A stretch of 64,000 nt of DNA from Verrucomicrobiota bacterium (GTDB lineage Bacteria; Verrucomicrobiota; Lentisphaeria; Oligosphaerales; Oligosphaeraceae). The notes beneath the pieces are model-generated. The model was not told the DNA's origin, ran no database searches, and worked only from the letters and a program-made list of their open reading frames with translations. Below, piece after piece: positions 32,943 to 64,000 of this stretch. The position numbers were made by a program, and so were the translations under genes. Location: contig JAGVUR010000185.1 in the NCBI GenBank assembly GCA_019136135.1, forward strand, positions 1 to 64,000. The letters run 5' to 3'. Each line of letters opens with the position of its first letter. Position 1 is the first letter of the stretch.

Positions 32943-32996
32943 GTACGGACACCCCGGGGTGCCCGTACTTGAGGTGTCGCGATATTATTCGAGCGA
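32943..32996 (+). repeat. GTAC-ended palindrome, copy D, and right copy of the direct repeat around the phosphate island
   Basis: 32943-32968 is a near-perfect palindrome with arms GTACGGACACCCC and GGGGTGCCCGTAC. 32961-32996 matches 15918-15953 in the same orientation, 32 of 36 bases. Its right end runs into the last codons of the large glycosidase gene. Confidence 0.65.
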
Positions 32997-35900: not shown

Positions 35901-36245
35901 GAAGCCAGCGATTCTTCTCATATGCTGCTGTCCCTTGATGTCCATGGTTCTGATGAAGAATCGCGTCTCAGGTACGGTTGGCTTGACCTTGAAGGTCAGG
36001 GTTGTGGTTCCTTTTGGGAGGTTGACTGGCTGGACAAATCCGATGTAGTTGCCCTTGGTCAGGTCGAAATCCAACTTTGCGGCTTCATCGCTGAGCGTCA
36101 ATTCCCCTTTTGCGCCTGGGAATTCCCCGCCGAGCGTCAAGGAACCTCGTGGTCCCGGGGTGTCATTGACTCTGATTTGTCTGACGGTTTGCGCATGAGT
36201 TGATGCCAGAAGCGCAAGGGTCAGGAGTATTGCACAGTGTTTCAT
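32985..36245 (-). CDS. Large secreted glycoside hydrolase with carbohydrate-binding domains
   Basis: 1086 residues with a signal peptide (cleavage near HAQ, residue 19). Residues about 20-175 form a beta-sandwich of binding-module type. The centre (about 290-620) is a TIM-barrel glycosidase of clan GH-A style: E408 in FEIWNEAYNF is the likely acid/base and E521 in FIITEAGWT the likely nucleophile, resembling GH39 or GH5 enzymes. Beta-sandwich linkers follow, and residues about 890-1086 look like a CBM9/DOMON-type module. The substrate is unknown; the neighbouring GH38 mannosidase gene starts close upstream on the same strand, suggesting a glycan-degrading operon. Confidence 0.8.
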   Translation of the reverse strand: MKHCAILLTLALLASTHAQTVRQIRVNDTPGPRGSLTLGGEFPGAKGELTLSDEAAKLDFDLTKGNYIGFVQPVNLPKGTTTLTFKVKPTVPETRFFIRTMDIKGQQHMRRIAGFSKPNQWTTLQTDLSKFEASWGKHEKIIHWPITEIVIGIEISRAKAPIGSFELKDLEVTTTASVKELPNIILNNVSDRFGLLFYPDENPSFKYKLATREKGRSTKFDVTHTVKNWLGETFYTETQKATGEQTLYTCVLTPDKLKNQFGSFQIEITAQNPDNPDDKQTFSLWFGRLQGSNPKPCPFIGVGTHPGHGWGHGDLRLVDILSAAGIGNVRDEIHWGSVETKKGEYTVPQRGIDYVNKLNERGIRFNYCMTYGNNLYENPCDPHGFANFAAYMGNFFKDKNITFEIWNEAYNFQFGKRYPGVTDGYPNWVRKFVELSLEAKRAIRKVNPNADIAVCAEDVERSLIMQIELGIADDPRDIISFHPYCHGQPRPEREMFLKDNGAKIRQLCEKHGGAKRFIITEAGWTTYSGEMEYLAIAGGYPRSSYVHQAQYLIRMYLTAIASGVEYACQYDFKNDGNNRSYTEHNFGIVHQDYSPKPSLLAIAHLTRLLEDATFVENLAQDPRQFSLYHFKDKNKRDLVAAYVINGEKSFEFPCAGDVKIIDLQGNPIKPTIKNGKLAITLTEIPVYIYGLDLNNISQHARLELIQKSSQTLIGDLITFQVNLTNRIGKTAEKATASYTFNPAPKDFKPIAWDLTTNLPNKATFTTLLAAKLDAQNWSELNGKNVELIVTCDVDGITAESKLVFQPSMPIIANANAIIRKNNQLKIPITFNNTARRRGTIEIEPISEQIKNLKKASFELNGDECQVVYLNIEGNTIPDNPTLTLNAKLSSGWQHTFTSQLANAIIPKAPAKIPLAIKPATFSVPDNNPLPYNKNDLDAKAFVSQSQKGIILEIQVFDDHFFQPYSNQNTLWAGDSIQVSLTSEGSQNHLAIMAASVQGKPKLIVENKILNNVSHDGIAFNCKNLDKNTILYTVEIPWNVLPKLDGIVRLSALVNDNDGNGRKSYTQFHGGIGKDKNIAEFGTYSLE

Positions 36246-36269
36246 CGGGTGTCTCCCTTGTTATTTGGT

Positions 36270-38960: not shown

Positions 38961-38968
38961 GGCTTTTC

Positions 38969-39712
38969 CTATCGGTTGAGAATTGTTCTTGCAATCCATG
39001 CGACGTAGGGGATTGGGTTGTAGGGCTGGTGTTTTGTTGCGATGTTTCTAGTTTCGTCCCGTGCTGGTTTTCGGTTTGCGTTGGCCAATCCTCCCAGCTC
39101 CATATTGACTTGAGGCGCTTTGATGTATGCGAATTCCACCTTGTTTTTGGCGAGTCTCCAGACGAAATCGTAATCCGCCGAGATCCTGTAGGATGTATCG
39201 TACAGGCCAAGTCGGTCGTAGGTTGACTTCTTGACGAAAAGTCCAGGATGGGGAACCGGCATCAGAATGGGAAGAAGGCAAAGGCACTTGGGAAATGAGG
39301 TCGAGACCACCTTGCCCGCCTGGTCGAGGAAGTTCACCGGTGCCGAAGCAACGCCTGCGTCAGGCGATTGTTGAAAGGCGGTTGCGACGCTTTCCAGCGC
39401 CGTCGGCTCGTACCAGTCATCGCTGTTCAGGAGTGCGATGACGTCGCCTGTCGCGGTTTTGATGCCCTGATTCCAGGCGACTGGTATGCCGGCTTCTCCC
39501 GGGGCGTCCACTTGCTTGAGGCTGATTGCCTTTACTCCCTTGTCGCCAAGGCGAGGCACGTACTCGTCAATGATGTCCTGGGTTCGATCCGTTGAGTTTC
39601 CATCGACGAAGATGTACTCGTCAGGCAAGGTCTTCTGAGCCAGGACGGATTCGATTGTCCGTCCCAGCGTGCGTTGTGAATTCTTGCAGATTGTGACCAG
39701 TGAAAAGCGCAT
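38969..39712 (-). CDS. Family 2 glycosyltransferase
   Basis: 247 residues, GT-A fold. The N-terminus RFSLVTICKNSQRTLGRTIES and the pair YIFVDGNSTDRTQDII form the nucleotide-sugar site, followed by LNSDDWYEPTAL, the DxD-like metal site. No membrane segment until a weakly hydrophobic C-terminus, so peripheral. It resembles the enzymes that add sugars to surface polysaccharides. It ends 8 bases before the alpha-mannosidase start and begins 7 bases after the stop of the 794-residue secreted protein, all on the minus strand. Confidence 0.9.
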   Translation of the reverse strand: MRFSLVTICKNSQRTLGRTIESVLAQKTLPDEYIFVDGNSTDRTQDIIDEYVPRLGDKGVKAISLKQVDAPGEAGIPVAWNQGIKTATGDVIALLNSDDWYEPTALESVATAFQQSPDAGVASAPVNFLDQAGKVVSTSFPKCLCLLPILMPVPHPGLFVKKSTYDRLGLYDTSYRISADYDFVWRLAKNKVEFAYIKAPQVNMELGGLANANRKPARDETRNIATKHQPYNPIPYVAWIARTILNR

Positions 39713-39719
39713 GGTGTCG

Positions 39720-42104
39720 TCACTCGATTGCCTGGAGGAGCATGACGTCCTCGGAGTCGAGGGTTATGGAGATTGATTTGTCTGCCACGGTGTATTCCTT
39801 GCCTGAGACCCGGTCGATCAGCTTGGCGACAGGCTTGTCAAATGAGATGGTCGCCGAAGCGGATTCTTCGGAGCCATTGAAGACGGTGTAGATATTGTCT
39901 CCGTACCGCTCGATCCAGATTTCTTCGGGTTTTGAAGATTTTGCATGGGTTATCGGTTGCCAGCCTGCTTCGCCCGCCAACTTGCAGAGCGGGAGGTACT
40001 TTTTGAAGAGGGGTCTATCGCGATTGTAGAGATCAGGATTTCTGAAGTAGTGATTGCTTGATGCGTCAGCGCTGAAGTAGCTTGGGTAGAATGCATAGAA
40101 GAGGCATCGTTTCATGTAGCGTTCGGAGCATTCGTAGGAAAATTCATCGAAGTTCGTATTTTGGAGGATGCTATAGAGTTTAGGTCCGCACAGGATGCGC
40201 CTGTAGAGCATGGCATGGTCATCTGGCGGACTCCATTTTCCGCCACGGTTCCAGTTCCATTCCGTGCCCATGACATCAAGGAGGGGTGCGAGCCACCAGT
40301 ATTGCCCTGGTGTCGAGTTTGCCATCATCAGCTTGCCCATTTTCCTAACGTCTTGTTCCAGTCTCCTGATGTACTCGAACGAGATCAGACCCTTGTGGAT
40401 GCCGGGCGCTTTGTCTGACGTGTCGAAGGTGAGTGGGGTCTGTGCGACGGCGAAATGCTCCCTGTCGTAATCCATTACCGCAGTGGCATATCCTTCGCTG
40501 GAGTCAACGTATTCGCCATCCAGGTTCCCCTTGGCGTTAGGACCGTAGAGGAAATCGATGATCTTTTCGTTCCATTGTAACTTAAAGTGGCTGATTTCGC
40601 CTGGGAATCCCGGCATTGAATTGATGCTCCAGACTGCTCCGTTGCACCAGGGCGTATCCAACAATTTGTGCGGACGTTCCCCGGTTTTTGTCTTGTGTCC
40701 GCACTTGAGGAAAGCAATCGCCCAGTTGTTTCCTTTTTCGGCGAGTGTTTCGGCGTGCTTGAGCGCCTGTTCGTAGGTTCTTGGGAGTTCCGGGTCCATT
40801 TTCATCCACCAGGTCATCGGCTCGGTATATCTGAAGGTCAGGATGTCGTTCTTGTCATCCCAATCGGTTTCATTGTTCCCTTCCTTGATTCTGAAGCCGA
40901 AGTCTTGCCAATCCTGGACTTCGCTGATCTTGGCGAATGCCATCCAGATTCCCTGCTTCTCGATCCTATTGAGGAAAGCATTGGGGAAAGTCTTGTAGAG
41001 TCCTTCAATCGCGCCGCGGAACCCCCAGGTTCCGTCAAACTCAAATTGAGCCAGCTTGACGAATGCACGGGGCTGCTCCTTGGTCAAGGCAATGTCATAG
41101 ACGACATAGAGTTCGTTGGTGTCGGTATTGTAGCCTGTCCGATGGTGGGCGGGATGGAAAAGGTCAAGCGAAAGACCGATGCCCCGGGAGCCGTCAACGA
41201 CTGCCGCAAAGGGCCATCTGGCAAGACCGCCTCCTGCGCCCTGCAAGCTGGCGTTGTTTGTCGAATACTCGATTTGTTCAATGGGCTTCTGATCTGTTCT
41301 TGAAAGGGAGGTCCAGTTCCAGTTATTTCCTTGCAGCTGAACCGCATAAACTAGTTGCAGGCACAGGTCGCTGGATGTATCGGTCGCCTCAAGCGTCGCC
41401 TCGATGCGTCTAATTCCTTGTGCGTCAACAGTTTCCTTGGGTTGGATCTTGACTCCGAATGGCATTCCTTCGGTTGCTTCGTAGAAGTCGCTTTTGGTTG
41501 ATACGTTTCGGATCTGGAATCCCGGCGATGGTTTCCAGGACTTGATGGGAACCCTGTCGAACCTGGTCACGTCATCCTTGAATTCGCGGAAGATGACGTC
41601 TTTGAATTCGGCTCTTCCTGCGTGGTTTCTGAGCAGGAGGTTAAGGGAGACCAGCTTGATTGGCTTGTCGGGGACATAGAGGACTTCGACGGTTTCCCAG
41701 TCATGTGTTCCTGTTGAGAATGTATTGATGACTCCCCATTGGTGTGATCCGTCCATGTTGGTCAGGTCCATATAGATGGAGTAGCTCGAGTCAGGGGAAC
41801 CTGAGACATTGACTGCCTTGCTTGTGGCTGATGCCCAGATTGGGTATGGCTTGTCCTGATTGAGCTGGATGACGGTCACGGCTCCGGCATGGCGCTTGAC
41901 GTCATCGCCATTATCGCAGACGAAGACATCGCCCTGCTTTGCGAAGCCTTCCTGGTATGCTCTCCAGATTGTGTTTTCGCCGATTAGGTTAGGTGCGTTT
42001 GCTTGGTTTATGTCCAGTGTTTCCTTGACCACGTTTTGTGCTTGCGCGATAATCGACATGGCCAGTGAAAGGGTGATTGCCAGAAGCGATGATTTTGAAG
42101 GCAT
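39720..42104 (-). CDS. Secreted protein of unknown function, tandem paralogue 1
   Basis: 794 residues with a signal peptide (cleavage near AQA, residue 22). Clearly paralogous to the next gene along its whole length, with conserved blocks such as WWMKMDPELPRTYEQAL, DGEYVDSSEGYATAV and SDKAPGIHKGLISFEY. Residues about 30-190 look like a carbohydrate-binding beta-sandwich; the centre (about 370-700) looks like a TIM-barrel hydrolase, with E531 in DGEYVDSSEGY a candidate catalytic acid; the end (VFNGSEESASATISFDKPVAKLIDRV) is a small beta domain. I do not recognise a named glycosidase family. It probably acts on a polysaccharide outside the cytoplasm. Confidence 0.8.
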   Translation of the reverse strand: MPSKSSLLAITLSLAMSIIAQAQNVVKETLDINQANAPNLIGENTIWRAYQEGFAKQGDVFVCDNGDDVKRHAGAVTVIQLNQDKPYPIWASATSKAVNVSGSPDSSYSIYMDLTNMDGSHQWGVINTFSTGTHDWETVEVLYVPDKPIKLVSLNLLLRNHAGRAEFKDVIFREFKDDVTRFDRVPIKSWKPSPGFQIRNVSTKSDFYEATEGMPFGVKIQPKETVDAQGIRRIEATLEATDTSSDLCLQLVYAVQLQGNNWNWTSLSRTDQKPIEQIEYSTNNASLQGAGGGLARWPFAAVVDGSRGIGLSLDLFHPAHHRTGYNTDTNELYVVYDIALTKEQPRAFVKLAQFEFDGTWGFRGAIEGLYKTFPNAFLNRIEKQGIWMAFAKISEVQDWQDFGFRIKEGNNETDWDDKNDILTFRYTEPMTWWMKMDPELPRTYEQALKHAETLAEKGNNWAIAFLKCGHKTKTGERPHKLLDTPWCNGAVWSINSMPGFPGEISHFKLQWNEKIIDFLYGPNAKGNLDGEYVDSSEGYATAVMDYDREHFAVAQTPLTFDTSDKAPGIHKGLISFEYIRRLEQDVRKMGKLMMANSTPGQYWWLAPLLDVMGTEWNWNRGGKWSPPDDHAMLYRRILCGPKLYSILQNTNFDEFSYECSERYMKRCLFYAFYPSYFSADASSNHYFRNPDLYNRDRPLFKKYLPLCKLAGEAGWQPITHAKSSKPEEIWIERYGDNIYTVFNGSEESASATISFDKPVAKLIDRVSGKEYTVADKSISITLDSEDVMLLQAIE

Positions 42105-42124
42105 TTTTGTTCTCCTGTGTTTGA

Positions 42125-44521
42125 TTATTGGATGGCTTCCAGGAGCATCACATCCTCGGAATTGAGGGTAACGGAGATGGATTTGCCTGACACGGTGTAT
42201 TCCTTGCCCGAAACTCGGTCGATCAGCTTGGCTATGGGCTTGTCAAAGGAGATCGTTGCCGAAGCGGTTTCGCTGGATCCATTGAAGACGGTGTAGTACT
42301 TCTCTCCAAATCGTTCCAGCCAAATGGCTTGTGGATTTGAGGAATGCGCCAGCGTGATCGATTCCCAGCCTGCTTCGCCCGCCAGCTTGCAGAGCGGAAC
42401 GTATTTCTTGAACAGGTGGCGGTCGCGGTTGTACAGGGCAGGATTCTTGAAGTAGTGCTTGGTTGAGGCGTCGGCGCTAAAGTAGCTTGGATAGAATCCG
42501 TAGAAGAGGGAACGTTTCATGTAAAGCTCGGATTGCTCCAGCCCGAAATCGTCAAAATTCGAGTTTTGCAGGATGCAATAGGGTTTTGGTCCGCAGATTG
42601 CTCGTCTGTAGAACAGGACGGTATCTGAAGGTGGGCGCCATTTTGCATTGTAGTTCCAGTTCATTTCTGATCCCATCACTTCGAGCCAGGGTGCCAGGAA
42701 CCAGAGCCTTGACGGGGTGGAATTCGCCATCATCAGCTTGCCCAAAGCGTGGACATCCTCGGAAATCTGCCTGACGTACTCGTAGGCAATCAATCCTGTG
42801 AAAATCCCCGGGTTTGCCTGGCGGTCGAAGCAGATTGGCGCCTTGGCGTATTGGAAGCGCGTTCTGTCGTAGTCGATCGTCTGTGTGACATATCCTTCGC
42901 TGGAGTCGATGTATTCGCCATCCAGCTTGTAATTGATATCAGTTCTTGTGTAGGTACTTTTTCTGTCTTCGTTCCACTTGTTCTTGAAGTCGGTGACCTC
43001 TCCTGGGATTCCCGGCATTGAGTTCATGCTCCAGACCGCTCCCGTGCTCCAGGGGGTGTTGGATATGCGTGAAGAGAATTTTCCATCCAGTGTCTTGTGC
43101 CCGCTGGCGAAGAGCGCCATGGCTTGCTTGTTTCCTTTTGCCTCCAGTTCGCGCGCCTTTGCGAGGGCGTCTTCGTACTCCCGCGGCTTAGTCGGATCCA
43201 TGTTCATCCACCAGGTCAAGGGTTCTGTATATCTGAAGGTTAGGATGCCATGGTCGTCATCCCACTTGGGTTCATCGATGCCTTCCTTGATGGCGAAGCC
43301 GAAGTCCTCCCAGCCCTCGACCTTGCTGATGGGAGCGAACGCCATCCAGTTGCCCTGGTTTTCGATCCTGTTGACGAATGCCGCTGGGAACGCCTTGACC
43401 AAAGCGGCGTAGGCGGAACGGAAGCCCCAGGAGGCGTCAAAGTCAAACTGGGCCAGCTTGAGGGTCGCCTTGGGCTGTTCCTTGGTCAAGGCGACGTCAA
43501 AAACAATGTAAAGCTCGTTCAAGGCACTATTGAATCCGCAACGATGATGGGCAGGAGTGAACATGTCAATCGCCAAGGCACGACCACGACCGTCCTTCGC
43601 AACCGCGCCAAAGGGCCAGTAGGACAGGCGACCTGTTCCGCCGTGATTCGTAACCGAGGTCTCCGTGAATTCGTAGCGGCCTGTGGCGGCTTCGCGCTGG
43701 CGGGTGTGCTCAAGCCATTGCCAGCCGGTTCCTTCCAAGGGGAGGGAGTAGGCGATTTGAAGGCAGAGGTCCTTCGAGGTGTCGGTTGCCAGGAAGTCGG
43801 CTTCGATGCGGCGTACTCCGTCTTGGTCCGTGGTTTCTGTCGTCTTCAGCTGGACGCCGTAGGGATCCTGCCCGCCGAAGCCGTAGAAGTCGCTATCTTC
43901 GCCGAAGTTTCTGATATGGAATCCCTTGTAGGGTTTCCAGCTTTTGAGCGGCGAGCCGTCGAATTTCTTGACATTGGCTCCTTCCTTGCTTTCCCTGAGG
44001 GTGATGTCCTTGAAGCTGGCCTTGCCGGCATGGTTCCTGAGCAGGACATAGACGTTTACGTGTTTGATTGGCTTTTCAGGGATGAAATCGACGACGGCTT
44101 CTTTCCAATCATGTGTCCCGGTAGGAAACACGTCGATGACTCCCCATTGTGGCGTGCCGTCCTGGTAGGTTATGTCCAGGTAGAGCGAGTAGTTGCTGTC
44201 AGGGTTTCCGCTGACTTTTTCGCCTTTGGCTTTTGCAGTTGCCCTGATTGATGCCGGTATTGTTTGGTTCAAGACGACGATGGTTCCGGCGCCGCGTATG
44301 TTGCTGGAGTCAGTCCCGTTGTCGCAAACAATCAGATCTCCTTGTTTTTCGAATCCTTGTTCCCAAGGCTTCCATTCGGCGTCCTTGGTGATGAGGTTGG
44401 GTTGTGATTCGACGTTGATTTTCTGGACTTGCTTGACGACTTCCCAGTTGTCCTGGGCGGTCAAGGCGGATGCGAAGAGGAATGCCGTCACTGCGATCAA
44501 TGCAAAGACTTTCGAAGACAT
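42125..44521 (-). CDS. Secreted protein of unknown function, tandem paralogue 2
   Basis: 798 residues, signal peptide ending near residue 22 (ALTAQ). Same layout as paralogue 1, which starts 20 bases after its stop. The equivalent of the candidate catalytic acid is E536 in LDGEYIDSSEGY. The N-terminal and C-terminal parts are the most similar; the middle is more diverged, for example around the TRQREAATGRYEFTET stretch. The pair suggests two related activities on one glycan or duplication for dosage. Confidence 0.8.
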   Translation of the reverse strand: MSSKVFALIAVTAFLFASALTAQDNWEVVKQVQKINVESQPNLITKDAEWKPWEQGFEKQGDLIVCDNGTDSSNIRGAGTIVVLNQTIPASIRATAKAKGEKVSGNPDSNYSLYLDITYQDGTPQWGVIDVFPTGTHDWKEAVVDFIPEKPIKHVNVYVLLRNHAGKASFKDITLRESKEGANVKKFDGSPLKSWKPYKGFHIRNFGEDSDFYGFGGQDPYGVQLKTTETTDQDGVRRIEADFLATDTSKDLCLQIAYSLPLEGTGWQWLEHTRQREAATGRYEFTETSVTNHGGTGRLSYWPFGAVAKDGRGRALAIDMFTPAHHRCGFNSALNELYIVFDVALTKEQPKATLKLAQFDFDASWGFRSAYAALVKAFPAAFVNRIENQGNWMAFAPISKVEGWEDFGFAIKEGIDEPKWDDDHGILTFRYTEPLTWWMNMDPTKPREYEDALAKARELEAKGNKQAMALFASGHKTLDGKFSSRISNTPWSTGAVWSMNSMPGIPGEVTDFKNKWNEDRKSTYTRTDINYKLDGEYIDSSEGYVTQTIDYDRTRFQYAKAPICFDRQANPGIFTGLIAYEYVRQISEDVHALGKLMMANSTPSRLWFLAPWLEVMGSEMNWNYNAKWRPPSDTVLFYRRAICGPKPYCILQNSNFDDFGLEQSELYMKRSLFYGFYPSYFSADASTKHYFKNPALYNRDRHLFKKYVPLCKLAGEAGWESITLAHSSNPQAIWLERFGEKYYTVFNGSSETASATISFDKPIAKLIDRVSGKEYTVSGKSISVTLNSEDVMLLEAIQ

Positions 44522-53210: not shown

Positions 53211-53729
53211 ATGAGAAGAGCATTGTTGCTGATTAGCTTGTTGATGGGTGTAGGTACAGCTTGCATGGCATATGACACGACGCCGCTGCAGATTGCAATT
53301 TGGCCTCCGTCCTTGCAGGTCGTTCCACCAGAAATTGACGTTTCGGGTTTGAAGTTGAATCTTCCCTACGGCGGAAACGAAACAATCGTCGGTGTGGATT
53401 TAGGTATAGCTTCGACGAGTAACAATACGTCCGCGTTGCAGATCAACCTTGTGAACTGCGCACACGAACGCTTTAGTGGCTTCCAGGTTGGATTGCTCAA
53501 TCTTTCCGGCGAGAGCCGCGGTCTCCAGATTGGTGTGTTGATGAATTCGACGGACGAAGTCGGAAGCGGTCTTCAGATTGGCATTATCAATTCGACGACT
53601 GAGATGAACGGCGTTCAAATCGGCTTGATCAACTACACACATTTCATGATTGGTTTCCAGGTTGGATTGGTGAACATCATTCGTGAATCGATCGTTCCAT
53701 TCTTCCCAATCGTCAATTTCTGCTTCTGA
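53211..53729 (+). CDS. Surface protein of the LA_2272 repeat type
   Basis: 172 residues with a signal peptide (cleavage near MAYD). From about residue 60 the protein consists of 15-18-residue repeats ending in ...QVGLLN or ...QIGLIN, with Asn at each turn, as in LA_2272 family surface repeat proteins, which probably form a stacked beta-solenoid. Probably exported and surface-exposed; function unknown. Followed by a strong terminator. Confidence 0.75.
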   Translation: MRRALLLISLLMGVGTACMAYDTTPLQIAIWPPSLQVVPPEIDVSGLKLNLPYGGNETIVGVDLGIASTSNNTSALQINLVNCAHERFSGFQVGLLNLSGESRGLQIGVLMNSTDEVGSGLQIGIINSTTEMNGVQIGLINYTHFMIGFQVGLVNIIRESIVPFFPIVNFCF

Positions 53730-53803: not shown

Positions 53804-53887
53804 CATGCAAAACGGAACTGTTTCCTAGCTGTTCTTTTTGCATTATGGAATATGTGAGTGGGTCTCAAACTGGAGGATTCTAGGACG

Positions 53888-56062
53888 ATGAAGCTACCCC
53901 ACAAGTTATTGTTGTTGTGTGTTATATCCGTGATGATTTCAATCATTTCGTTGATTGGGATTCATCACGGGCTTCGCTTGGTTTCGGTATCGGGTCAGAT
54001 TCGCGGTTTGGCCGTTGAGTTTCAGGCGCAGGTTCTGGCACTGGATCAGCTTCGCGATCGCCAGATGATTCAGCGTGACTTGTTGGGTTTGGTTGACACT
54101 CTTGACGAGTTGGGTCGCATGTTGGATAAGGTTGGACCATCGGTTCAGTTTCATCGTTCTGACCTATCTGAATTGCGCGAAGAGATTTCGCGTTTATCCG
54201 AGCAGGGGAAGTCTGCGTTTCGTTCTCAGGATTTGGAGCGTTATGCCAGTTATTCGAGTTTATGGCAAAGTTTGTCTCGGATGTGCGAATGGGAGGGTGA
54301 GCGTGGTTCGTTGTATGTGAAGGTATTTTCGCTGGGATGGATTCTTGGCTTGGTTCTGGTGGGGATTTTTGGATGTTTGATCTATTGGCTTGACTACCAT
54401 CGGAAGCTGAATCAGATCAGTTGTCAGCTTGCGGTATGGTCCGGGGCAGATGATTCAGCGGGGTTTCATCCTCTGGCGAACCTCGGTGACATTGAGAAGT
54501 ACTTGACCCGATTGCACGCCCAGCGCAAAGAGCGTTCTGAAGGCGAAGGGGCATTTTTGGCGGAGATGAGCCACGAAATTCGAACGCCCTTGAACGGAAT
54601 CATCGGTTTTTTGAGCAATTTGGGCGAGACTCAGCTGAATGCGCAGCAGAAGCAGTATTTGAAGATCATCGAATCAAGTGCCCGCAGCTTGTTGCATGTC
54701 ATCAGTGAAATCTTGGATTATTCGAAGATCAATGCGGGTGCGATGGAGCTTGAGATTGTCGCCTTTGACTTGCGTGCATTGGCTGAGGACAGGATTGCAT
54801 TGGCGTCACAGCTAGCCAAGGCAAAGGGCTTGAAAATGAATCTTGTATTTCCTGGGCACGAAGCGGTTATCGTGCGCGGAGATCCAAACCGGCTTAGGCA
54901 GGTCCTGGATAATCTTCTGGGAAATGCCGTGAAATTCACGAATCGCGGTGAGATCTGCTTGGAAATTCAAACCGGGAATGCAGATGACAACCAAGTGGTG
55001 GTCGATATCGCGGTGAAGGATACAGGAATCGGAATCGCACAGGAAAAACTGGCCAATCTGTTCCAACCCTTTACGCAGGCAGATAGCAGCGTCAGCAGAA
55101 AGTACGGAGGAACTGGACTGGGATTGTGCATCTCAAGCAGCCTCGTCAAACTCATGGGAGGTAAATTGGAAGTCTGGAGCCGATTGGGGGAAGGCTCCAG
55201 ATTCTATTTCATGCTCACAATGTGCAGGGCAAGAGCTGAAGAACAAGTCAGGCTGCCGGGAAGCTTCAAAATCAATCTCCCAAGACAAGAACTCAAAAAA
55301 CATTGGGCGCTGCTGGTTGACGATACCCCGACGAATCTCTTCCTCCTCGAAACAGTCTGCCAAAGCGTAGGATTGCCGTATCGTACCGCTAACAATGGAG
55401 CAGAAGCAGTAGAACTGTGCCTGAAACAAAAATTCGACGTGATTTTCATGGATATCCAAATGCCTGTGATGGACGGATATACGGCTATCAGGGAAATCAG
55501 GAAGCTGCCGACTAGCGGGATGACGGCAATCGTCGCGCTGACGGCCTCGGCTTTCCCGGAAGACGTGGAACGAGCGCTCGCGGCAGGGGCAACCGGGTTC
55601 ATCGCAAAGCCTTTCGAACGAAATCAACTCCTCATGTGCATCGCAGATGCCTTGCTGCTGGAACCAGAACGGGAAATGCTGCCTGAGAATGACGTCATTG
55701 AAGACGATGACGAGGCGACGATCAGGCACATGCACGACTTCATGAGGGAACAATACCAAATCTCGCTGGGCGAGATCAAGATGACGCTGGCGCAGACAGT
55801 CTCCGATTGGAGACCGCTCCTGGATAATCTCGGAATCTATGCGAAAAAGGGGAATGTGCCTGATACGAAAGCGATCTTGCATCGCCTGAAAGGGCAGCTG
55901 TCGTCGATTGGCTTGACTCGTCAATCGGAGCAAGCGGCTTTGATTATGGAATGCCTGTCTGGCGACGAGGTGACGGAACAGGCTTTGGCCAGCATCGAGG
56001 AGCTGATTGGTGAACTAGGACGGATCTTCAAGGTTCTGGAACAAGATGTGACTGTGGGCTAG
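53888..56062 (+). CDS. Hybrid sensor histidine kinase with receiver and HPt domains
   Basis: 724 residues from the ATG at 53888 (GGAGG upstream); a GTG ten codons earlier is an alternative. Two membrane segments (about 12-32 and 142-165) enclose a periplasmic helical sensor. Then phospho-acceptor H229 (EMSHEIRTPLNGII), ATP-binding domain (N box DNLLGNAVKFTN, G box KDTGIGIAQEKLANLFQPF), a receiver with D522 (FMDIQMPVMDG) and a C-terminal HPt domain with H665 (ILHRLKGQLSSIGL). A full phosphorelay in one protein, lacking only a final regulator; that partner is not nearby. It precedes the GT-C and ligase genes and may control surface glycan synthesis. Coding composition flips from G/T-rich (54301-54360, 47 of 60 bases) to A/C-rich (about 55240-55800). 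Confidence 0.93.
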   Translation: MKLPHKLLLLCVISVMISIISLIGIHHGLRLVSVSGQIRGLAVEFQAQVLALDQLRDRQMIQRDLLGLVDTLDELGRMLDKVGPSVQFHRSDLSELREEISRLSEQGKSAFRSQDLERYASYSSLWQSLSRMCEWEGERGSLYVKVFSLGWILGLVLVGIFGCLIYWLDYHRKLNQISCQLAVWSGADDSAGFHPLANLGDIEKYLTRLHAQRKERSEGEGAFLAEMSHEIRTPLNGIIGFLSNLGETQLNAQQKQYLKIIESSARSLLHVISEILDYSKINAGAMELEIVAFDLRALAEDRIALASQLAKAKGLKMNLVFPGHEAVIVRGDPNRLRQVLDNLLGNAVKFTNRGEICLEIQTGNADDNQVVVDIAVKDTGIGIAQEKLANLFQPFTQADSSVSRKYGGTGLGLCISSSLVKLMGGKLEVWSRLGEGSRFYFMLTMCRARAEEQVRLPGSFKINLPRQELKKHWALLVDDTPTNLFLLETVCQSVGLPYRTANNGAEAVELCLKQKFDVIFMDIQMPVMDGYTAIREIRKLPTSGMTAIVALTASAFPEDVERALAAGATGFIAKPFERNQLLMCIADALLLEPEREMLPENDVIEDDDEATIRHMHDFMREQYQISLGEIKMTLAQTVSDWRPLLDNLGIYAKKGNVPDTKAILHRLKGQLSSIGLTRQSEQAALIMECLSGDEVTEQALASIEELIGELGRIFKVLEQDVTVG

Positions 56063-56084: not shown

Positions 56085-57776
56085 ATGGAAAACGGAAGCG
56101 CTCAACAGAAGGGGATCAAGTATGGGGTGTTGGTCGCGCTAGCGTTGTTTGTCCTGTTGGCAGTGTGCCGAATGGGTTTTCCCCTAGGGCAAGATGAAAT
56201 TTCGCATTACTACAAGGTCGCACGGATCTTGTTTTTTGACGGCTATTCGCACCCTGAGGATTTGATTGTTTTTTCGCCTCATTTGTACCCATTGGCCTGT
56301 TGGGGCGTCACCGAATTAGTCGGTGTATTTCGTCCTTGGGCGGTGCAATTGACGGGGATTCTGTGTTGGCTTGGGTGCTTGTTTTCGCTTTGGCGGCTAA
56401 GTTTTGACAGGCGTGATGCATCGATAGCCTGTGCTTTGTGCTTGACGATGCCCGCTGTGCTTCAGGCATCGGTGACGATTGAGATTGACCAGGCGATGTT
56501 GCCTTTATTGGTTTTGCTGTTGTGCTGGTCATTTGATCGTGCATGTTCCGGGAAGTTGGGTTGGCATTGGGTATCGCTGTTGTTTGGCCTGTCCCTTTGG
56601 TGCCGTCCAACGACTCCAGTGGTCTTGGTGCCGGTTTTGCTGGTGTACGCAGGGTTGCGTGTTGGAAGCAGACGTGACGTGATCAAGCCCGCCATCGCTT
56701 TGCTGGCTGGCTTTTTGCTGTTCTTGGGCACCTGGAGTTTGTATGGACTCTTGACGGGAGTGCGTTGGCAAGGCGTGTTCCATTACTTGTGCCGGTCGTT
56801 TACGGAAACGACGGTCGGCGAGCGATCGTCCGGGTTGGGGCGCATTGTGCAAAGCATGATTTATTTAATTTTTTGGGGGTTGAATCCGTTTTTATTGTGT
56901 TGGCTATTGCAGTCATTTGTTTTTGTTGTAAATCGATATCGTCACGCCGGCTATTTGGCTCCTGGGAGTTTGTACGGATTATGTGCGATATGGCTGCTTT
57001 TGGGTTATTCGCTTGTAGGCGGCTCGTTGTTTGGCTTTCCCAAGTACCAAATCAGCGGGATTCCATTGCTTTGCGCCTTTGTGACCATGGTGAATCCGCC
57101 TGATTTTTCATGGCACGATCGCGTGAAGGATCGTGTTGCGGTCTGTTGTTTTATCGTATTGTGTGTTTTGGCTGGATGTTTTGGCTTGGGCGATCCACTT
57201 GAAGTCATGCGCGTGGAGGTGCGTGATTTGGCCTGTCAGGGCGAAGGGATCAAAGGTGTTTTGCTTGGCATGGCGGTGCGGTGCGCGCTGGTTTGGCTTG
57301 CGGTGGCACTGTTCATCCTGTGGTTGGTTTTGAGAAAGAAGATTACGTTGGCGACTGCACTTTTCTTGGCAGCAATTTCGCTCAATGCGGGATTTGCGCT
57401 TCGGCAGACAGCCGGCGGCTATTGCACGGGATATGTATATGGGGATCGGGGCGAGACGAAGCAGGTTGCCAAAATCCTGGCAAAAGCCACGGACAAGCCT
57501 GAACAGGCGATCGCTCCACACGAAGTCCTGTTCTATCTTGATGACTTCAAGCTGGTCAATGATGTCCCCGAAGTCTTCTCGAAAGCTGAAGATTTGCAAG
57601 CGGCATTGCGTGACAGAAAGCCACCCGTGGTCGCTACGTCGCCCCTGGTGTCAACGGTCGCCAATGTCTCGTTGCTGTTGTCAAATCCAGAAATCCGAGA
57701 AATCCTTGATGCGGAATACGAATACCAAAAGGTTGGACGTTACTACGTATGGACGAGAAAAAGCGTTGATCCATAG
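56085..57776 (+). CDS. GT-C membrane glycosyltransferase (PMT/ArnT-like)
   Basis: 563 residues with about eleven membrane segments. The first periplasmic loop carries the catalytic acid pair D37-E38 in FPLGQDEISHYYKVARIL, as in GT39/GT83 enzymes that use polyprenyl-phosphate sugars. A soluble C-terminal part (about 455-563) follows. It could use the undecaprenyl-linked sugar made by a GT2 such as that at 44984-45658. It overlaps no gene but starts 22 bases after the kinase stop and ends 3 bases before the ligase gene, so one transcript is likely. G/T-rich throughout. Confidence 0.8.
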   Translation: MENGSAQQKGIKYGVLVALALFVLLAVCRMGFPLGQDEISHYYKVARILFFDGYSHPEDLIVFSPHLYPLACWGVTELVGVFRPWAVQLTGILCWLGCLFSLWRLSFDRRDASIACALCLTMPAVLQASVTIEIDQAMLPLLVLLLCWSFDRACSGKLGWHWVSLLFGLSLWCRPTTPVVLVPVLLVYAGLRVGSRRDVIKPAIALLAGFLLFLGTWSLYGLLTGVRWQGVFHYLCRSFTETTVGERSSGLGRIVQSMIYLIFWGLNPFLLCWLLQSFVFVVNRYRHAGYLAPGSLYGLCAIWLLLGYSLVGGSLFGFPKYQISGIPLLCAFVTMVNPPDFSWHDRVKDRVAVCCFIVLCVLAGCFGLGDPLEVMRVEVRDLACQGEGIKGVLLGMAVRCALVWLAVALFILWLVLRKKITLATALFLAAISLNAGFALRQTAGGYCTGYVYGDRGETKQVAKILAKATDKPEQAIAPHEVLFYLDDFKLVNDVPEVFSKAEDLQAALRDRKPPVVATSPLVSTVANVSLLLSNPEIREILDAEYEYQKVGRYYVWTRKSVDP

Positions 57777-57779
57777 ATT

Positions 57780-60700
57780 ATGTGTGCGATCTTGATGTAT
57801 TTATTAGGATTTTCCTGCCTGGCTTGGGTAGGGATCGGGAATTTGCCTGCTGCCGTAGGCGATTTGTTTTTGGCGTGCCTGCTGCCGTATGCGGTTGCGG
57901 AGGGGTATCGTCGTCGCCGCGAATTGCTGTCGGTCGTCTCCTCGCTTCCATTTATTTTCTTGAGTTTAAGCCTGTGTTTTTCTCTTTTAGCTTGCGGTAT
58001 TTCTGCCCGTGTTGGCTTTGGTCTATTGAAGGGATGTCAGCTTGTTTGGTACTTGGCTCTTGGTCCTTTGGTGATTTGGAGCTTGGGGAAATTTCGCGAT
58101 TGTCTTCTGAAAGGCTTGGCGATTGGATTTGTGGCGAATTTGGCTGTTGGGTTGGTTCAAGGAGCCTTGAGCCTAGGCGGTCCTTCCGGCGGATTGTTGG
58201 GATCCCGCACGGGTTTTGGGGTTGGGCTTGCTGTGGCGAGTTCGTTGTTGATGGCTCGCGACATGCTGCCGCTTCCGTGGGTAACGGCGCCCTGGGGCAA
58301 TGTGGCGTTGATGGCATATGGGGCGACGGTCAGCGGAATGTCGGGGATTTTCCTGGGATTGGGATCGTTGATGACTCGCTACAGGAATGAATTTGTGATT
58401 CGCGAGCGGCAATTGCAGACAGCTCCCTTTTTGGCATTTGTCCTCGCGGTTATATTGGTGAGTCCGATTCGTCGTGATGCCTTATTGGATAGCGTCACGA
58501 TTCATGATCGCGGGGTTGTTTCGAGTACGGCTGAGGAACTGCCGTTGCGTCGTTGGGCGCAGGAGCGGATTTGCGCATGGCGTGCGATGAGGGCGAAGCC
58601 CTGGTTAGGTACGGGACCTGGAAGTTACCAGTCCACCGTCGGGCAGGCGGAGATTCGGGGGACGTTCAATCGCCCCAGCGAGACGAAGGTCGAGATTCAT
58701 TCTCAGAATGGCTGGCAGGTCTTTGGAGTCGAGTACGGCTTGCCGGCGGCGATCTTGCTGTTGCTGGCGATGCTCGTGCTTGGCATCGATGTAAAGACCC
58801 GATCGATTCGCTGGTCGGTCTTGCTGTTGATCCTTGGGATGATAGTTACTCCGATGCTGGCGAAGGGCTCGGGATTGCTGGTATCGCTGGTGTTGGGGAC
58901 ATGGCTTTCGGGTAGCGAGACCAGGCAGGGTGCTGGTTGGCGATTGATTCCCGTCTGCTTGTTTGGACTGATGCTCCTGTTGTTGCCGGCGATTTGCGCG
59001 AGCGGTTTGTTGCGCGAATCGTCCGAGTCCGCTGAAACTCAAGCCAAGGCAGACTTTGTGCTGGTTATGGAGGCGGAATCGGTTGCGGCGATACGCCCAT
59101 TCCAACAGGAAAATGGATGGATCACCATACCGGACAAGATCCTGGAGAGTGACGAATCCCTGCGCAACGTGGGCCTTGAGTATGACTTCGAGTTGAATGA
59201 AGCCAAGGAATTGGCGCTGTGGCTGAAGGTGAGATGGCAAGACGGATGCGGAAACTCGATTTTCGTCTCCGTTGATGGACAAACCCCTTACTTGGCGGGA
59301 AACGATGGAACGTACAACGCATGGCATTGGATCAGGGCTGGATACCATCGGCTCGACAAAGGAACGCATACCATCAAGTTGCTGCCTAGTGAAGACGGAA
59401 TCCAAATCGATCAAATCCTGCTATGCGACAACCGGGAATTCCATCCGCAAGCCATCCAGGATGACGAGAAAGCCGAGCCAAAACAGGAAGCGTTGAAACA
59501 ATTGCCTGAAATGATCCCGGCGGAACGACAACTCCTGTTCGCAACGGGAGGTCCCTACCGGGGCGGGTACGAAGCCGTGCTGACAACTTTGGGTCTCTCT
59601 TGGATGAAATTGCACGACTACGAACTCGAAAGCGCAGAACTCCTGAAGAAATATACCGTCGTGGCGGCATCGGATCCGTTCAATAAGCCGGCACACCTGG
59701 TGACCTCGGCGCTCAAGGAGTTTGCAGAGGCAGGAGGCAACCTGCTGCTGGAAAACTTCAGGCAAGTGATGGGAGACACAGGAAGGGGAAACCATCATCT
59801 ATGGCCTCCGCTAAGACGACCCTGGTCGCGCAATGGAGGCACCGTAACGGCAGATGATGGCTGGCCATTCCAAGGACTTGAGAAGGGAACAGTGCTCAAA
59901 ATCGCCGACGACATCGCCATGCAAAACCTGCATCAACCAGGCAAGGATTCGCCGTGGAAAGGGTACGGAAGGCAGTTTAGGCACCGCGATGAAGGATACT
60001 CGATCTGGGAACGCGACCTCGGAAAAGGACATGTAATCTATTGCGCGACGCCCTACTGCTTCCAGACGATGTGGCGAAACCGAGACCTGGAACCCGTACT
60101 CAGAAACTTGATCCTCAAGTACGCACAAGACGCAGGGCACCACCCCCTTTGGAATGATTGGACAAGACAAAGCCTCCAACCGAAAGACCCATGCTTCGCA
60201 GATGACTTCATGAGGCAGGAAGACAATCACCCTGGACAACCCTGGATCGTCAAAAGAGGACGCTTCAAATGTACCGGAGACAAACCCGAAAACAGAGAAG
60301 ACGCATTCTCCCTGGTCTGCGCCGAACCAGGCGAAGTCCAAGTCGGAGAAGCCGCTTGGCAAGATGTCGTCATTTCAGCCAGCGTGAAAGGACCGGGACG
60401 AATCGCCGTTCAGGCTGTGACCACCAGCGGCCGTGACCACAAGCTTGAGTATGATGCAGCCACAAGAAAGGTCGAATTGAACGGTGCCAACGCGATCAAT
60501 GTCCGTGGAGCAGAATGGCATCGGCTGTCGCTCCTGGCACGGGCTGGTTGGCTTGAAGCGTATTGCGATGGCAGCCTCGTTGCAAAGATAAAATTGGATA
60601 ATCCAAACGAAACGTTGCATGGAAATCCAGTCTTCGGCTTTTCCGAAATCGGTGGAATGCTCGATGACGTTTCAATCCGTTCCCTGGAGCAAGTCTTGCC

Positions 60701-61538
60701 AGGAACGGATCGGGCGATTGGAGACGAGGGTAGCTGCCTGGCGTTGGCTCGTATAAGCGATGAAGGAATCGAGCGAAACACGATCTTTTCGCCATATGTC
60801 TGGTTCCAGGTTTTGCCTGTTTTCCGCAATGGCGTCAGATTGGCTATGCCGTTGTTTAAGCCTGGTGTTTTGCATACGAACGGGACGGGTTATTTGTTGC
60901 CGGCGAGCAATGAATTGCTGGAGTTTGGCCTGCCGGAGACCGAGGGGTTGGCCGAGATCTACGTCGAAACCCCGTATTGGAAAGACTATGTTTTCAAGAA
61001 GCGGATGACGGATTGGTACGGTTTGGGCGGCAAGTGGGAGCAATTGGAGCGTTGGAGCTGCGATGACAAGTGGAGTTGGCTGGGCGTCGAGACCGAGGAC
61101 CGGGCCGCCTTGTGGAACAAGTTGACCTTGTCGCCGCCCTTTGCGATACGCGCATTTTTGTCATTGGGGGCACGTGATTATTTCAGTAGCGAGTACGATC
61201 ATGGTCAGAATATGAATTTGGTTTTTAACGGGGATGGCGCATCATTGGACAGTGGCTGGCAGGTGCGCGGGATGGATGCCCGTGGTCGTGGGATTGAGTT
61301 GTGGCATGCTGGCCAGCTGGTTGCTTCGAATCGCGAGCTGGGCTTGGGAAGGGGGCATACGTTGCACCACAGCTGGTTCGAGATTGCCGCAGTTGTGCAA
61401 AAAGACAGGATTCGAGTATATTTCGAAGGACGACTTGCAATCAACCATCAATTGCAGGAGCCGATAGGTTCGGGTCAAGTAGGGATTTGGACGGAGAAAA
61501 ACTCGATCCGAGTAGGACGTGTTCAGTTGTCTTGGTGA
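57780..61538 (+). CDS. O-antigen-ligase-like membrane protein fused to a large carbohydrate-binding C-terminus
   Basis: 1252 residues. Residues 1 to about 410: some ten membrane segments with the Wzy/WaaL pattern, including RAMRAKPWLGTGPGSYQST (about 271-289) and the periplasmic H307 in EIHSQNGWQVFGVEYG. Ligase-type enzymes join polyprenyl-linked glycans to lipid A or protein acceptors. The remaining 840 residues lie outside the membrane: a CBM6/malectin-like sandwich (about 427-555), a class I amidotransferase-like domain without clear catalytic residues (about 580-790), a LamG-like sandwich (about 805-970) and a second LamG-like domain (about 1040-1252). Starts 3 bases after the GT-C stop with no good ribosome site, so coupled translation. 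I know of no named family with this architecture. Confidence 0.8.
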   Translation: MCAILMYLLGFSCLAWVGIGNLPAAVGDLFLACLLPYAVAEGYRRRRELLSVVSSLPFIFLSLSLCFSLLACGISARVGFGLLKGCQLVWYLALGPLVIWSLGKFRDCLLKGLAIGFVANLAVGLVQGALSLGGPSGGLLGSRTGFGVGLAVASSLLMARDMLPLPWVTAPWGNVALMAYGATVSGMSGIFLGLGSLMTRYRNEFVIRERQLQTAPFLAFVLAVILVSPIRRDALLDSVTIHDRGVVSSTAEELPLRRWAQERICAWRAMRAKPWLGTGPGSYQSTVGQAEIRGTFNRPSETKVEIHSQNGWQVFGVEYGLPAAILLLLAMLVLGIDVKTRSIRWSVLLLILGMIVTPMLAKGSGLLVSLVLGTWLSGSETRQGAGWRLIPVCLFGLMLLLLPAICASGLLRESSESAETQAKADFVLVMEAESVAAIRPFQQENGWITIPDKILESDESLRNVGLEYDFELNEAKELALWLKVRWQDGCGNSIFVSVDGQTPYLAGNDGTYNAWHWIRAGYHRLDKGTHTIKLLPSEDGIQIDQILLCDNREFHPQAIQDDEKAEPKQEALKQLPEMIPAERQLLFATGGPYRGGYEAVLTTLGLSWMKLHDYELESAELLKKYTVVAASDPFNKPAHLVTSALKEFAEAGGNLLLENFRQVMGDTGRGNHHLWPPLRRPWSRNGGTVTADDGWPFQGLEKGTVLKIADDIAMQNLHQPGKDSPWKGYGRQFRHRDEGYSIWERDLGKGHVIYCATPYCFQTMWRNRDLEPVLRNLILKYAQDAGHHPLWNDWTRQSLQPKDPCFADDFMRQEDNHPGQPWIVKRGRFKCTGDKPENREDAFSLVCAEPGEVQVGEAAWQDVVISASVKGPGRIAVQAVTTSGRDHKLEYDAATRKVELNGANAINVRGAEWHRLSLLARAGWLEAYCDGSLVAKIKLDNPNETLHGNPVFGFSEIGGMLDDVSIRSLEQVLPGTDRAIGDEGSCLALARISDEGIERNTIFSPYVWFQVLPVFRNGVRLAMPLFKPGVLHTNGTGYLLPASNELLEFGLPETEGLAEIYVETPYWKDYVFKKRMTDWYGLGGKWEQLERWSCDDKWSWLGVETEDRAALWNKLTLSPPFAIRAFLSLGARDYFSSEYDHGQNMNLVFNGDGASLDSGWQVRGMDARGRGIELWHAGQLVASNRELGLGRGHTLHHSWFEIAAVVQKDRIRVYFEGRLAINHQLQEPIGSGQVGIWTEKNSIRVGRVQLSW

Positions 61539-61557: not shown

Positions 61558-64000
61558 ATGAAAAATTTAGTCTTGGCATTGAGCTTGACGATGTCGTTGG
61601 GTGCCAGTCAATGTGTGGAAGAACTCGCGATTGACGCCTTTTCAGAGACCAATCAAGGGCAATGGTTCGCCAACTCGAAATTTGCCCAGGATCCCGAGCG
61701 CGGCTGGATCCTGGATGTGGTCGTCCCCCCCAATACACCAGTAGTGGGATACGGGCTGAACATCAAGGACATTTGCCCGAAAATTGCGGAGTGGGACGAT
61801 TTCCTGTTTGACTATTGCGTGACGATGCCTTGCGAATGGTTTGGGATCAAAATTATTGACAAGCCGTTGGCCGATGGTTGGCAGGCAACCTGGAGACTGA
61901 ATCTGCCTGCCAATGCGGATAAGGAGTGGCAAACCGCAGTCGTAAAGGTCCATACACCAATGTGGAGGTGGGGGGATGGTCCGTCAGATAACAGGCAAAT
62001 CTATTTCCGTGCACAAAATCCAGGTGAGACTGCGATGAGAATCCGCATAGCAAACCTTAGGTTGAGGCGGAAAAACTTGTTTTGCACGCTGGACGAGTCG
62101 CTGAAGTGGATCGGAAAAAAGACTGAACTGAACATCAAATTTAATAGTCGTCTTGATCGTGAGGTCAAAGTCGCCGTGACTCCACATCCTGAAGAGGGAG
62201 CGAGCTTTTCGCAAGCTGAGTATAGGGTGTCCATTCCCGCCAAGGGCGAATCGACGTTGCGGATCCCGGTGTCGCTTGCGGAATCCGTGAAGGGGATGCA
62301 ACCGTTGACGCTGAAGGCAAAGGTGGAGGAAATTGAGGAAAACGGTCGCAATGAACTTGACCACCTGGTGATTAACACGGTGACGCCAATACCACCATAC
62401 CCGTCCCCGATGCTGTTTGTTACCCCGGAAGGGTTTAAGCAAATGCAAGAGCGAGTCGATACAATGCCGGGATGTAAAGTTGCTTGGGATGGAATCAAGA
62501 ATAGCGCCGATTCATGGCTGGAACGAAAGCCAAAATATCCAGACCGAGGAGCCCAATGGTGGCACTGGTACTCATGCAAAAAGTGCGGAGTCTCGCTCAA
62601 GACAAAATCGGCAACTCAACATGTCTGCCCAGTGTGCAATGAAGTCTATTCAGGTTGGCCATACGACGATGTCGTGCTGTCCAGGATCCACGATGGCCTG
62701 GCCCGTGACGTCCAACGGCTGGGACTCGCATATCAGATGACAAAGGATCCAAGATATGCCGAAAAAGCACGGGAAATCGCAATGGGATACGCCGAAAGAT
62801 ATCTGGACTATCCCCTTCATGACATTCATGGAAAACCTAGCAAAGGAGGCGGCAGGGTCCACCCGCAAACCCTCGACGAGTCAATCTGGCTTATCCTGAT
62901 GGTCCAAGGACTCGATTGCATCAAGGATACGCTGACGCAAGAAGACATTGATTTCCTCGAAGAAAAAATGCTGCTCCCCGCAGCCCTGATGATCAAGGAC
63001 CACCAGTGGGGCATACATAATATCTGCTGCTGGCAAGCGTCAGCTTACGGATTGGTGGGATTCTTCCTGAATCGTGCCGACCTCATCCATCCCGCAATCT
63101 TCGGACCAAAGGGCTTTATCGCACAATGCGAACAAGGAATCACAGACGATGGACAATGGTATGAACGTGCCTGGGGATATCACTTCTATACCGTCAATGC
63201 CCTGAAACCACTGGCAATCGCAATCCAAAATACAGGTATCGTCAAACTCCCGTATAAACTGAAGGCGATGTACGATGCGCCAATCAAATTTGTGACTCCG
63301 ACAGAGCAGCTGCCCGCGTTCCACGATTCGGGAAGAGTCGCCTTCAGCTTCCGGGGAATGAGTCGAGACTATGAAAACGCATACGCATGGTGGAAAGATC
63401 CAAAGCACGGGTTCATCGTTGCACAGGGAAATAGAAACGACCAAAACGCACTGCTGTTCGGAGTGATGGATCTGGAGATGAACAGACCCGATTTCCGCTC
63501 GGAAAACTATGCCGATACAGGAGTGGTCGTGATGAGAGCGCAATCCGACAAGCTGGAGCCGACCAATATCCCCTCAAACTACATCGCACTGGATTACGGC
63601 GAGCACGGAGGAGGACATGGACATCCCGACAAGCTCAACTTCGTTCTCTATGGGCATAACCAGATCATCGCCGAAGACCCAGGATGCATCGCATACGGAA
63701 ATCCAGCCCATGGAGGATGGTATCGACAAACGCTCAGCCACAATACGCTGGTCGTCAACGGAAAAAGCCAGGCGGCAACAACCGGACAATGCTTGGCATT
63801 CGCGCAAAACGACAATGCGGCAATCTGCGTAACCGAAGCGGGACCGATATATCCAGGAGTCGTCGCATATCGGGCATTGGCGATGGTTGGAGACATCGTC
63901 CTGGATGCGTTGTGGACTACCGCAGACTCAAACCGAGAATTCGAATACCCCTTCCACGCAAGAGGAATACTCGAAACAAATGCAAAGGCCGAAACGACGG
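61558..64000 (+). CDS. Heparinase II/III-like polysaccharide lyase, secreted (cut by the window end)
   Basis: At least 814 residues, continuing past 64000. ATG 61558 has AGGAG seven bases upstream and follows the ligase gene by 19 bases. A signal peptide covers about 1-20 (MKNLVLALSLTMSLGASQC); C20 would suit a lipoprotein, though the lipobox is weak. A beta-sandwich domain is followed by a zinc ribbon (C340, C343, C357, C360), an (alpha/alpha) toroid (about 380-600) and the heparinase beta-sandwich with the active-site motif HGGGHGHPDKLN (H687, H689, D691). It cleaves uronic-acid-containing polysaccharides, alginate, heparin or a bacterial exopolysaccharide. Strongly A/C-rich from about 62400. 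Its place behind the polymerisation genes suggests editing of the same glycan. Confidence 0.9.
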   Translation, partial: MKNLVLALSLTMSLGASQCVEELAIDAFSETNQGQWFANSKFAQDPERGWILDVVVPPNTPVVGYGLNIKDICPKIAEWDDFLFDYCVTMPCEWFGIKIIDKPLADGWQATWRLNLPANADKEWQTAVVKVHTPMWRWGDGPSDNRQIYFRAQNPGETAMRIRIANLRLRRKNLFCTLDESLKWIGKKTELNIKFNSRLDREVKVAVTPHPEEGASFSQAEYRVSIPAKGESTLRIPVSLAESVKGMQPLTLKAKVEEIEENGRNELDHLVINTVTPIPPYPSPMLFVTPEGFKQMQERVDTMPGCKVAWDGIKNSADSWLERKPKYPDRGAQWWHWYSCKKCGVSLKTKSATQHVCPVCNEVYSGWPYDDVVLSRIHDGLARDVQRLGLAYQMTKDPRYAEKAREIAMGYAERYLDYPLHDIHGKPSKGGGRVHPQTLDESIWLILMVQGLDCIKDTLTQEDIDFLEEKMLLPAALMIKDHQWGIHNICCWQASAYGLVGFFLNRADLIHPAIFGPKGFIAQCEQGITDDGQWYERAWGYHFYTVNALKPLAIAIQNTGIVKLPYKLKAMYDAPIKFVTPTEQLPAFHDSGRVAFSFRGMSRDYENAYAWWKDPKHGFIVAQGNRNDQNALLFGVMDLEMNRPDFRSENYADTGVVVMRAQSDKLEPTNIPSNYIALDYGEHGGGHGHPDKLNFVLYGHNQIIAEDPGCIAYGNPAHGGWYRQTLSHNTLVVNGKSQAATTGQCLAFAQNDNAAICVTEAGPIYPGVVAYRALAMVGDIVLDALWTTADSNREFEYPFHARGILETNAKAETT

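Follow-up and report, generated by a model that had tools for sequence, protein, structure and literature searches.

A Wzy_C-type membrane domain fused to a putative glycan-binding tail in Lentisphaeria and its separately encoded counterparts in Verrucomicrobiota

The window (the whole stretch of DNA analysed, 64,000 nucleotides) contains a gene coding for a Wzy_C-type integral membrane domain (WZY) followed by a tail of four domains, here called MAL, GAT, LG1 and LG2. At the level of sequence, the comparison of genomes establishes the fusion, its ancestry and the coupling of MAL with Wzy, which elsewhere in the phylum are encoded by two adjacent genes. We propose, with a probability of roughly 55%, that the product is a Wzy-type polymerase (or terminal transferase) with a glycan-binding periplasmic partner covalently attached.

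A maintained five-part fusion

The fused gene occupies positions 57780-61538 of the plus strand, which also carries all of its parts listed below, and was defined by reading of the open frame, homologues and dN/dS. It is one frame of 1252 codons without stop or frameshift; the break between domains that the initial annotation had raised as a refutation is thus absent. The nearest relative, from the TPA metagenome assembly of Lentisphaeria bacterium UBA1407 (G003, DBPZ01000087.1), is 94% identical from end to end. The dN/dS ratio is 0.16 overall and 0.065-0.18 for each domain, the lowest value being that of GAT, and 0.17 through the junction between WZY and tail (residues 380-430), indicating purifying selection throughout. 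The same fusion, sought in related genomes, is complete in eight (G000-G004, G029, G032 and G047), which represent four families of the order. Every one of the five genomes in the window's genus has it, while the fused genes of G029, G032 and G047, representing three further families, are about 30-33% identical; in a ninth genome (G035) the C-terminal part is seen in a gene truncated at the contig end. Given this selection and the presence of the full architecture in the genus and in members of three further families, the fusion is old, real and maintained. The initial claim of a single polypeptide-coding gene joining a WaaL/Wzy-type domain to glycan-binding-like domains is therefore supported by the eight genomes, by selection and by synteny. 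As to whether the two parts are always separate in relatives, the answer lies in between: the genus and three other families carry them fused, distant relatives have them split, and G005, from the same family, lacks the tail. The idea that the tail is peculiar to a single strain was rejected.

The window genome is a draft in 217 contigs, in which misassembly or an overlooked frameshift might have joined two genes; however, independent genomes with as little as about 30% identity have the same junction and selection runs across it, which makes such an artefact vanishingly improbable, and sequence comparison ruled it out.

MAL (residues 428-566, 59061-59477), delimited by the family profile and alignment, is CBM35/malectin-like and has the signature W..GCGN...GNDGTY..WHW, in which W-x4-W-x3-C-x-N and GND-x-TY-x2-WHW are invariant. 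When 38 members were compared with Pfam, GH115_C was retrieved in 13 (best E 0.004) and CBM_6 in three (best E 0.027), and no known CBM or malectin profile matched above its curated cut-off. GAT (residues 578-792, 59511-60155; alignment and profile) is weakly GH42/amidotransferase-fold-like, with an E value of 0.016 to the GH42 beta-galactosidase domain. The GAT alignment has no invariant Cys that could represent the nucleophile of class I glutamine amidotransferases, thus amidotransferase activity is not expected; GAT as such an enzyme was rejected, and the earlier term "amidotransferase-like" was not confirmed, the similarity being weak and to GH42 beta-galactosidase domains only. LG1 (residues 800-972, 60177-60695; alignment and profile) is weakly LamG/thrombospondin-N-like (E 0.015 to the thrombospondin-1 N-domain), and LG2 (residues 973-1252, 60696-61535) resembles, below cut-off, DUF6250 and 3-keto-disaccharide hydrolases, most clearly in the relative from G061 (E 7e-4 and 1e-3, both sub-threshold). 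The descriptions first given to MAL ("CBM6/malectin-like") and to the last two domains ("LamG-like") are accordingly plausible, with all matches lying below threshold. The tail is probably a chain of binding-type modules, and these similarities suggest that they may bind sugars.

LG1/LG2-like domains are also found in proteins of about 2000-2250 residues in many genomes of the order, namely L130:7541-13849 (contig C138 of the window's genome) and its homologues. In two families, LG2-containing genes (L142:11352-14213 and L112:2-1042) lie directly upstream of WZY-MAL and overlap it, thus LG2 also travels with MAL-linked Wzy as a separate gene.

Separate, fused and tailless forms

The class and the phylum were searched with the family profile, and MAL, Wzy and tail were found in four states. 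In the split state, present in nine families of Verrucomicrobiota (f7, f20, f40, f45, f46, f49, f57, f76 and f78), MAL is a separate protein, mostly of 176-250 residues and with a signal peptide, and Wzy has 400-490 residues. MAL is directly upstream of Wzy and on the same strand at 17 of the 20 loci where a short MAL is encoded separately, a count that includes L154, where Wzy is truncated by the contig end; at nine of these 17 the two genes overlap by 1-4 bp. Three loci depart from this: L150 breaks off with its contig, and the portions read around L111 and L113 contain no Wzy. Searching in the reverse direction with a split-Wzy profile, built from four MAL-adjacent proteins and hence not wholly independent of MAL, identified 15 genomes of the phylum, all 15 of them also MAL genomes. 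Four split loci (L108, L147, L153 and L157) share the order of several GT4 genes, a MurJ/MVIN-type flippase, GT4, MAL and Wzy; L153 and L157 also contain hydrolases related to those of the exosortase-A-associated cluster, all under the equivalog cut-offs. The split loci are thus flippase/GT4 clusters of exopolysaccharide type, which favours a polymerase role for MAL-linked Wzy.

A short WZY-MAL fusion of about 520-810 residues is present almost once per genome across the order, including the window's own genome (contig C108), and is usually followed by a gene, C1, of about 240 residues. C1 has no Pfam match and a faint likeness to an outer-membrane lipoprotein-sorting protein (3bk5, E 0.04). 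The paralogue of the window's genome (L033:6567-9365) and 20 similar loci show the short WZY-MAL gene followed by C1, and the two together look like a second, order-wide envelope module. The long fusion, as in the window, adds three domains to WZY-MAL in a subset of Lentisphaeria, while the four-domain tail alone forms two lipobox-type proteins in G061, with no adjoining Wzy. In the FastTree phylogeny all the fused forms fall in one clade (support 0.995), as do the long fusions (0.945), and the MAL tree has the same groups. A tailless Wzy of 426 residues from G005 nests within the long clade (0.946). It retains a hydrophobic segment at its C-terminus, and its gene still has the GT-C partner seen in the window; the most plausible interpretation is that the tail was lost secondarily. 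The tail is thus dispensable there, as Wzy was kept without it.

Each partnered separate Wzy has three hydrophobic segments after the large loop, and the protein ends about 90-100 residues further on. The fused forms mostly have a fourth post-loop segment, found in none of the separate Wzy and located right before MAL (in the window protein residues 388-408, 58941-59003, from hydropathy); among the fused forms counted with three segments, some have a fourth that falls under the threshold used. This segment, together with the signal peptides of the separate MALs and the lipobox-like signals of the stand-alone four-domain tails, places the tail in the periplasm, a location that is probable on the basis of hydropathy.

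The flippase/GT arrangement holds for the split relatives; the window gene is not in such a locus, its neighbours being a GT-C enzyme, a sensor kinase and a lyase-like protein, and this difference suggests that the system of the window may serve another glycan. The GT-C glycosyltransferase (PMT_2; 56085-57776, plus strand) lies 3 bp ahead of the fused gene, and the pair recurs in each of the five genomes of the genus, as does GT-C with Wzy in G005. Upstream of the pair, and likewise conserved in the genus, are a small LA_2272-type surface repeat protein (53211-53729) and a hybrid histidine kinase with HisKA, HATPase, receiver and Hpt domains (53858-56062), possibly a regulator. On the downstream side, a secreted protein similar to heparinase II/III and alginate lyases (61558-64000, plus strand, extending past the window end) follows the fusion in G000 and G003 only. 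In G001, G002 and G004 a protein of about 1720 residues with MBG repeats replaces it, and G002 and G004 also have a small protein with a PEP-CTERM-like end downstream of the fused gene (L034:14232-19412, L037:2842-3450). Elsewhere in the window, a minus-strand block of large ORFs (32985-44521) comprises an ORF with a GH38 alpha-mannosidase-like start (36270-38999), a GT2-like ORF (38969-39712) and two look-alike ORFs of about 800 amino acids each (39720-44521).

The membrane domain and the canonical histidine

WZY (residues 1-410, 57780-59009) was assigned by PF04932, hhalign and hydropathy, the latter placing a large extramembrane loop at about residues 231-318. The PF04932 (Wzy_C) match has an E value of 1.8e-6 and 28.3 bits for the protein, against a curated cut-off of 31.7 bits, and 32.1 bits when scored in the genome frame; Wzy of the split relative L157 reaches 56.5 bits. 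hhalign of WZY with the split Wzy relatives gave an E value of 9e-18, and the profile-profile comparison with canonical Wzy_C proteins of the same genomes 6e-5. Hydropathy and alignment show multiple transmembrane segments flanking a large hydrophilic loop that carries G-x-G-x-G, and the WLGTGPGS motif noted initially is found at residues 275-282; for the WaaL/Wzy membrane fold claimed with it, the family match of the protein lies slightly under the curated cut-off. Searching the PDB with profiles of WZY, MAL and LG2 produced no meaningful match, scanning IMG/VR yielded no relatives, and AlphaFold models were of low confidence (pLDDT 32 for the tail alone, 37 for WZY 1-414 and one homologue).

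In ligases of the WaaL/PglL/PglS type, an Arg binds pyrophosphate. In the window protein a conserved Arg pair, R257-R258 (58548-58553, from the alignment), precedes G-x-G-x-G, and R258 aligns with the invariant Arg column of canonical Wzy_C; it is kept in the complete long fusions and in the split forms and lost in the short fusions. R258 may thus play here the role of the canonical Arg. Across the long family R257/R258, E262, E301, E305 and the G-x-G-x-G-x-YQ motif are invariant.

WaaL-type enzymes are also thought to use a His within an H-[NSQ]-x9-G motif. In an alignment of 45 MAL-linked Wzy domains and ten canonical Wzy_C proteins, this His is kept in all ten canonical proteins of the same group; the column holds Gln in most MAL-linked Wzy, fused or split (typically "DTQ" or "QN"), and a few other residues in the remaining ones, and family f20 has a His at the position just preceding it. 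In the window protein (H307-S308-Q309, 58698-58706, from the alignment) the column is occupied by Q309, and the catalytic His of the ligase motif is missing. H307, which the initial annotation took for the conserved periplasmic His of WaaL, lies two residues ahead of the column and is replaced by N, G or E in relatives; it was rejected as a catalytic residue, and "O-antigen ligase with periplasmic H307" is no longer an appropriate label, because the His is absent from the MAL-linked Wzy family. For PglS, the mutant of the equivalent His, H324A, served as inactive control (PMC12800693). As the canonical position lacks a His, activity of the window protein is not assured.

Candidate functions and known systems

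In the preferred reading, the membrane domain would polymerise or transfer an undecaprenyl-pyrophosphate-linked exopolysaccharide at the inner membrane, and MAL would be its periplasmic glycan-binding partner, encoded separately upstream in the split state and placed at the C-terminus of Wzy in Lentisphaeria; in the lineage of the window, the tail would have been extended by three more extracytoplasmic domains. Located over the periplasmic face of the active site, the tail might keep the growing glycan or the acceptor near the membrane domain, and such holding could contribute to processivity, to length control or to hand-over to the envelope. The eight-genome architecture, the MAL-Wzy adjacency, the outcome of the reverse search, the flippase/GT4 loci, the tree, the fourth post-loop segment of most fused forms, the signal peptides and lipoboxes of the separate homologues and the conserved Arg argue for this reading; the absence of the canonical His, the position of the window gene outside a flippase/GT4 cluster, the lack of an above-threshold CBM match for MAL, the tailless G005 protein, the low pLDDT values and the G061 tail lipoproteins without adjoining Wzy argue against it. 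We infer a polymerase rather than a ligase, with a role of the tail in processivity or display.

A ligase or O-glycosyltransferase, which would move a completed glycan off undecaprenyl pyrophosphate and onto a lipid or a surface protein, with the tail holding or being the acceptor, would be consistent with a Wzy_C family that includes ligases and O-oligosaccharyltransferases, with the periplasmic C-terminal domain of PglS, with the adjoining GT-C partner gene and with the surface-type neighbours (MBG-repeat and PEP-CTERM-like proteins) in G001, G002 and G004. We consider it unlikely, as the catalytic His of WaaL and PglS is Gln in the window protein and in most MAL-linked Wzy, and the split relatives stand in loci where a Wzy polymerase is expected; given the same two findings, the original designation as an O-antigen ligase is not supported. 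The missing His could also indicate a pseudoenzyme, that is a Wzy-derived anchor or sensor devoid of catalysis, which only presents the tail in the periplasm, for example in a glycan-sensing role coupled to the hybrid histidine kinase. The loss of R258 in the short paralogues, the slow evolution of the tail (most evident in GAT) and the genus-wide conservation of the kinase two genes upstream fit this idea; however, the residues invariant across the long family would not be expected in a mere anchor, and G005 retained the membrane part while losing the tail, making a pseudoenzyme quite unlikely.

Returning to the polymerase with a binding partner, the pairing of MAL and Wzy genes elsewhere in the phylum suggests a polysaccharide machine of two parts that seems not to have been described. 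In a bolder version, which we hold tentatively and with the odds clearly against it, MAL and Wzy would form an obligate two-part polymerase across Verrucomicrobiota, whose lectin-like subunit holds the substrate so that His-dependent chemistry is not needed; in the lineage of the window, synthase, polymer-binding and display modules would then have been united in a single polypeptide able both to make its product and to hold it. It is unsettled how Wzy polymerases and ligases of bacteria set the length of their chains and pass the product on, and Wzz, the well-known helper of Wzy, is not a lectin. A partner that overlaps with or is fused to Wzy across a phylum thus represents a defined and testable pair for studies on polymer length and attachment, and the partnership, if true, would assign a function to a protein family that is found across Verrucomicrobiota and lacks annotation.

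In the open-access papers searched, malectin and Wzy were not found together, nor were Lentisphaer* and O-antigen ligase, and the phylum-wide MAL-Wzy pairing, from overlapping genes to fusion, was not found either; a match for ligase, carbohydrate-binding and fusion concerned another superfamily and was discarded. The initial statement that no equivalent is described agrees with this literature as regards the MAL-Wzy pair, but Wzy_C proteins with other soluble C-terminal parts, namely TPR or, in PglS, a periplasmic domain, are already known. The window protein shares with the Wzy_C family (PF04932, comprising WaaL, Wzy and PglL/PglS/PilO; WaaL structures 7tpg and 7tpj) the multi-transmembrane fold with a large extramembrane loop, the G-x-G-x-G motif and the preceding conserved Arg; it differs by the Gln in place of His, the fourth post-loop segment and the 840-residue tail. 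The O-linking oligosaccharyltransferase PglS, with 13 transmembrane helices, also combines Wzy_C with a soluble periplasmic C-terminal domain (PMC12800693), but this has about 110 residues and the His is essential there. The Wzy_C-TPR proteins of the same genomes (for instance L091, 651 amino acids), whose profile matches WaaL 7tpg, likewise have a soluble C-terminal part, which consists of TPR instead of glycan-binding-like domains, and keep the canonical HN motif. The split loci contain hydrolase and GT4 relatives of the exosortase-A exopolysaccharide clusters (PEP_O_lig_1 TIGR03097, hydr1/hydr2_PEP, stp2 GT4), and Wzy of f20 matches TIGR03097 weakly; however, all matches are far under the equivalog cut-offs and MAL was not found described in those clusters. 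MAL itself is weakly similar to the GH115 C-terminal domain, CBM6, CBM35 and malectin, none at the curated cut-off, and differs from them by its own invariant signature. Thus, judging from the literature searched, a Wzy_C domain with a soluble C-terminal part was already known, and the pairing of MAL with Wzy would be the new element.
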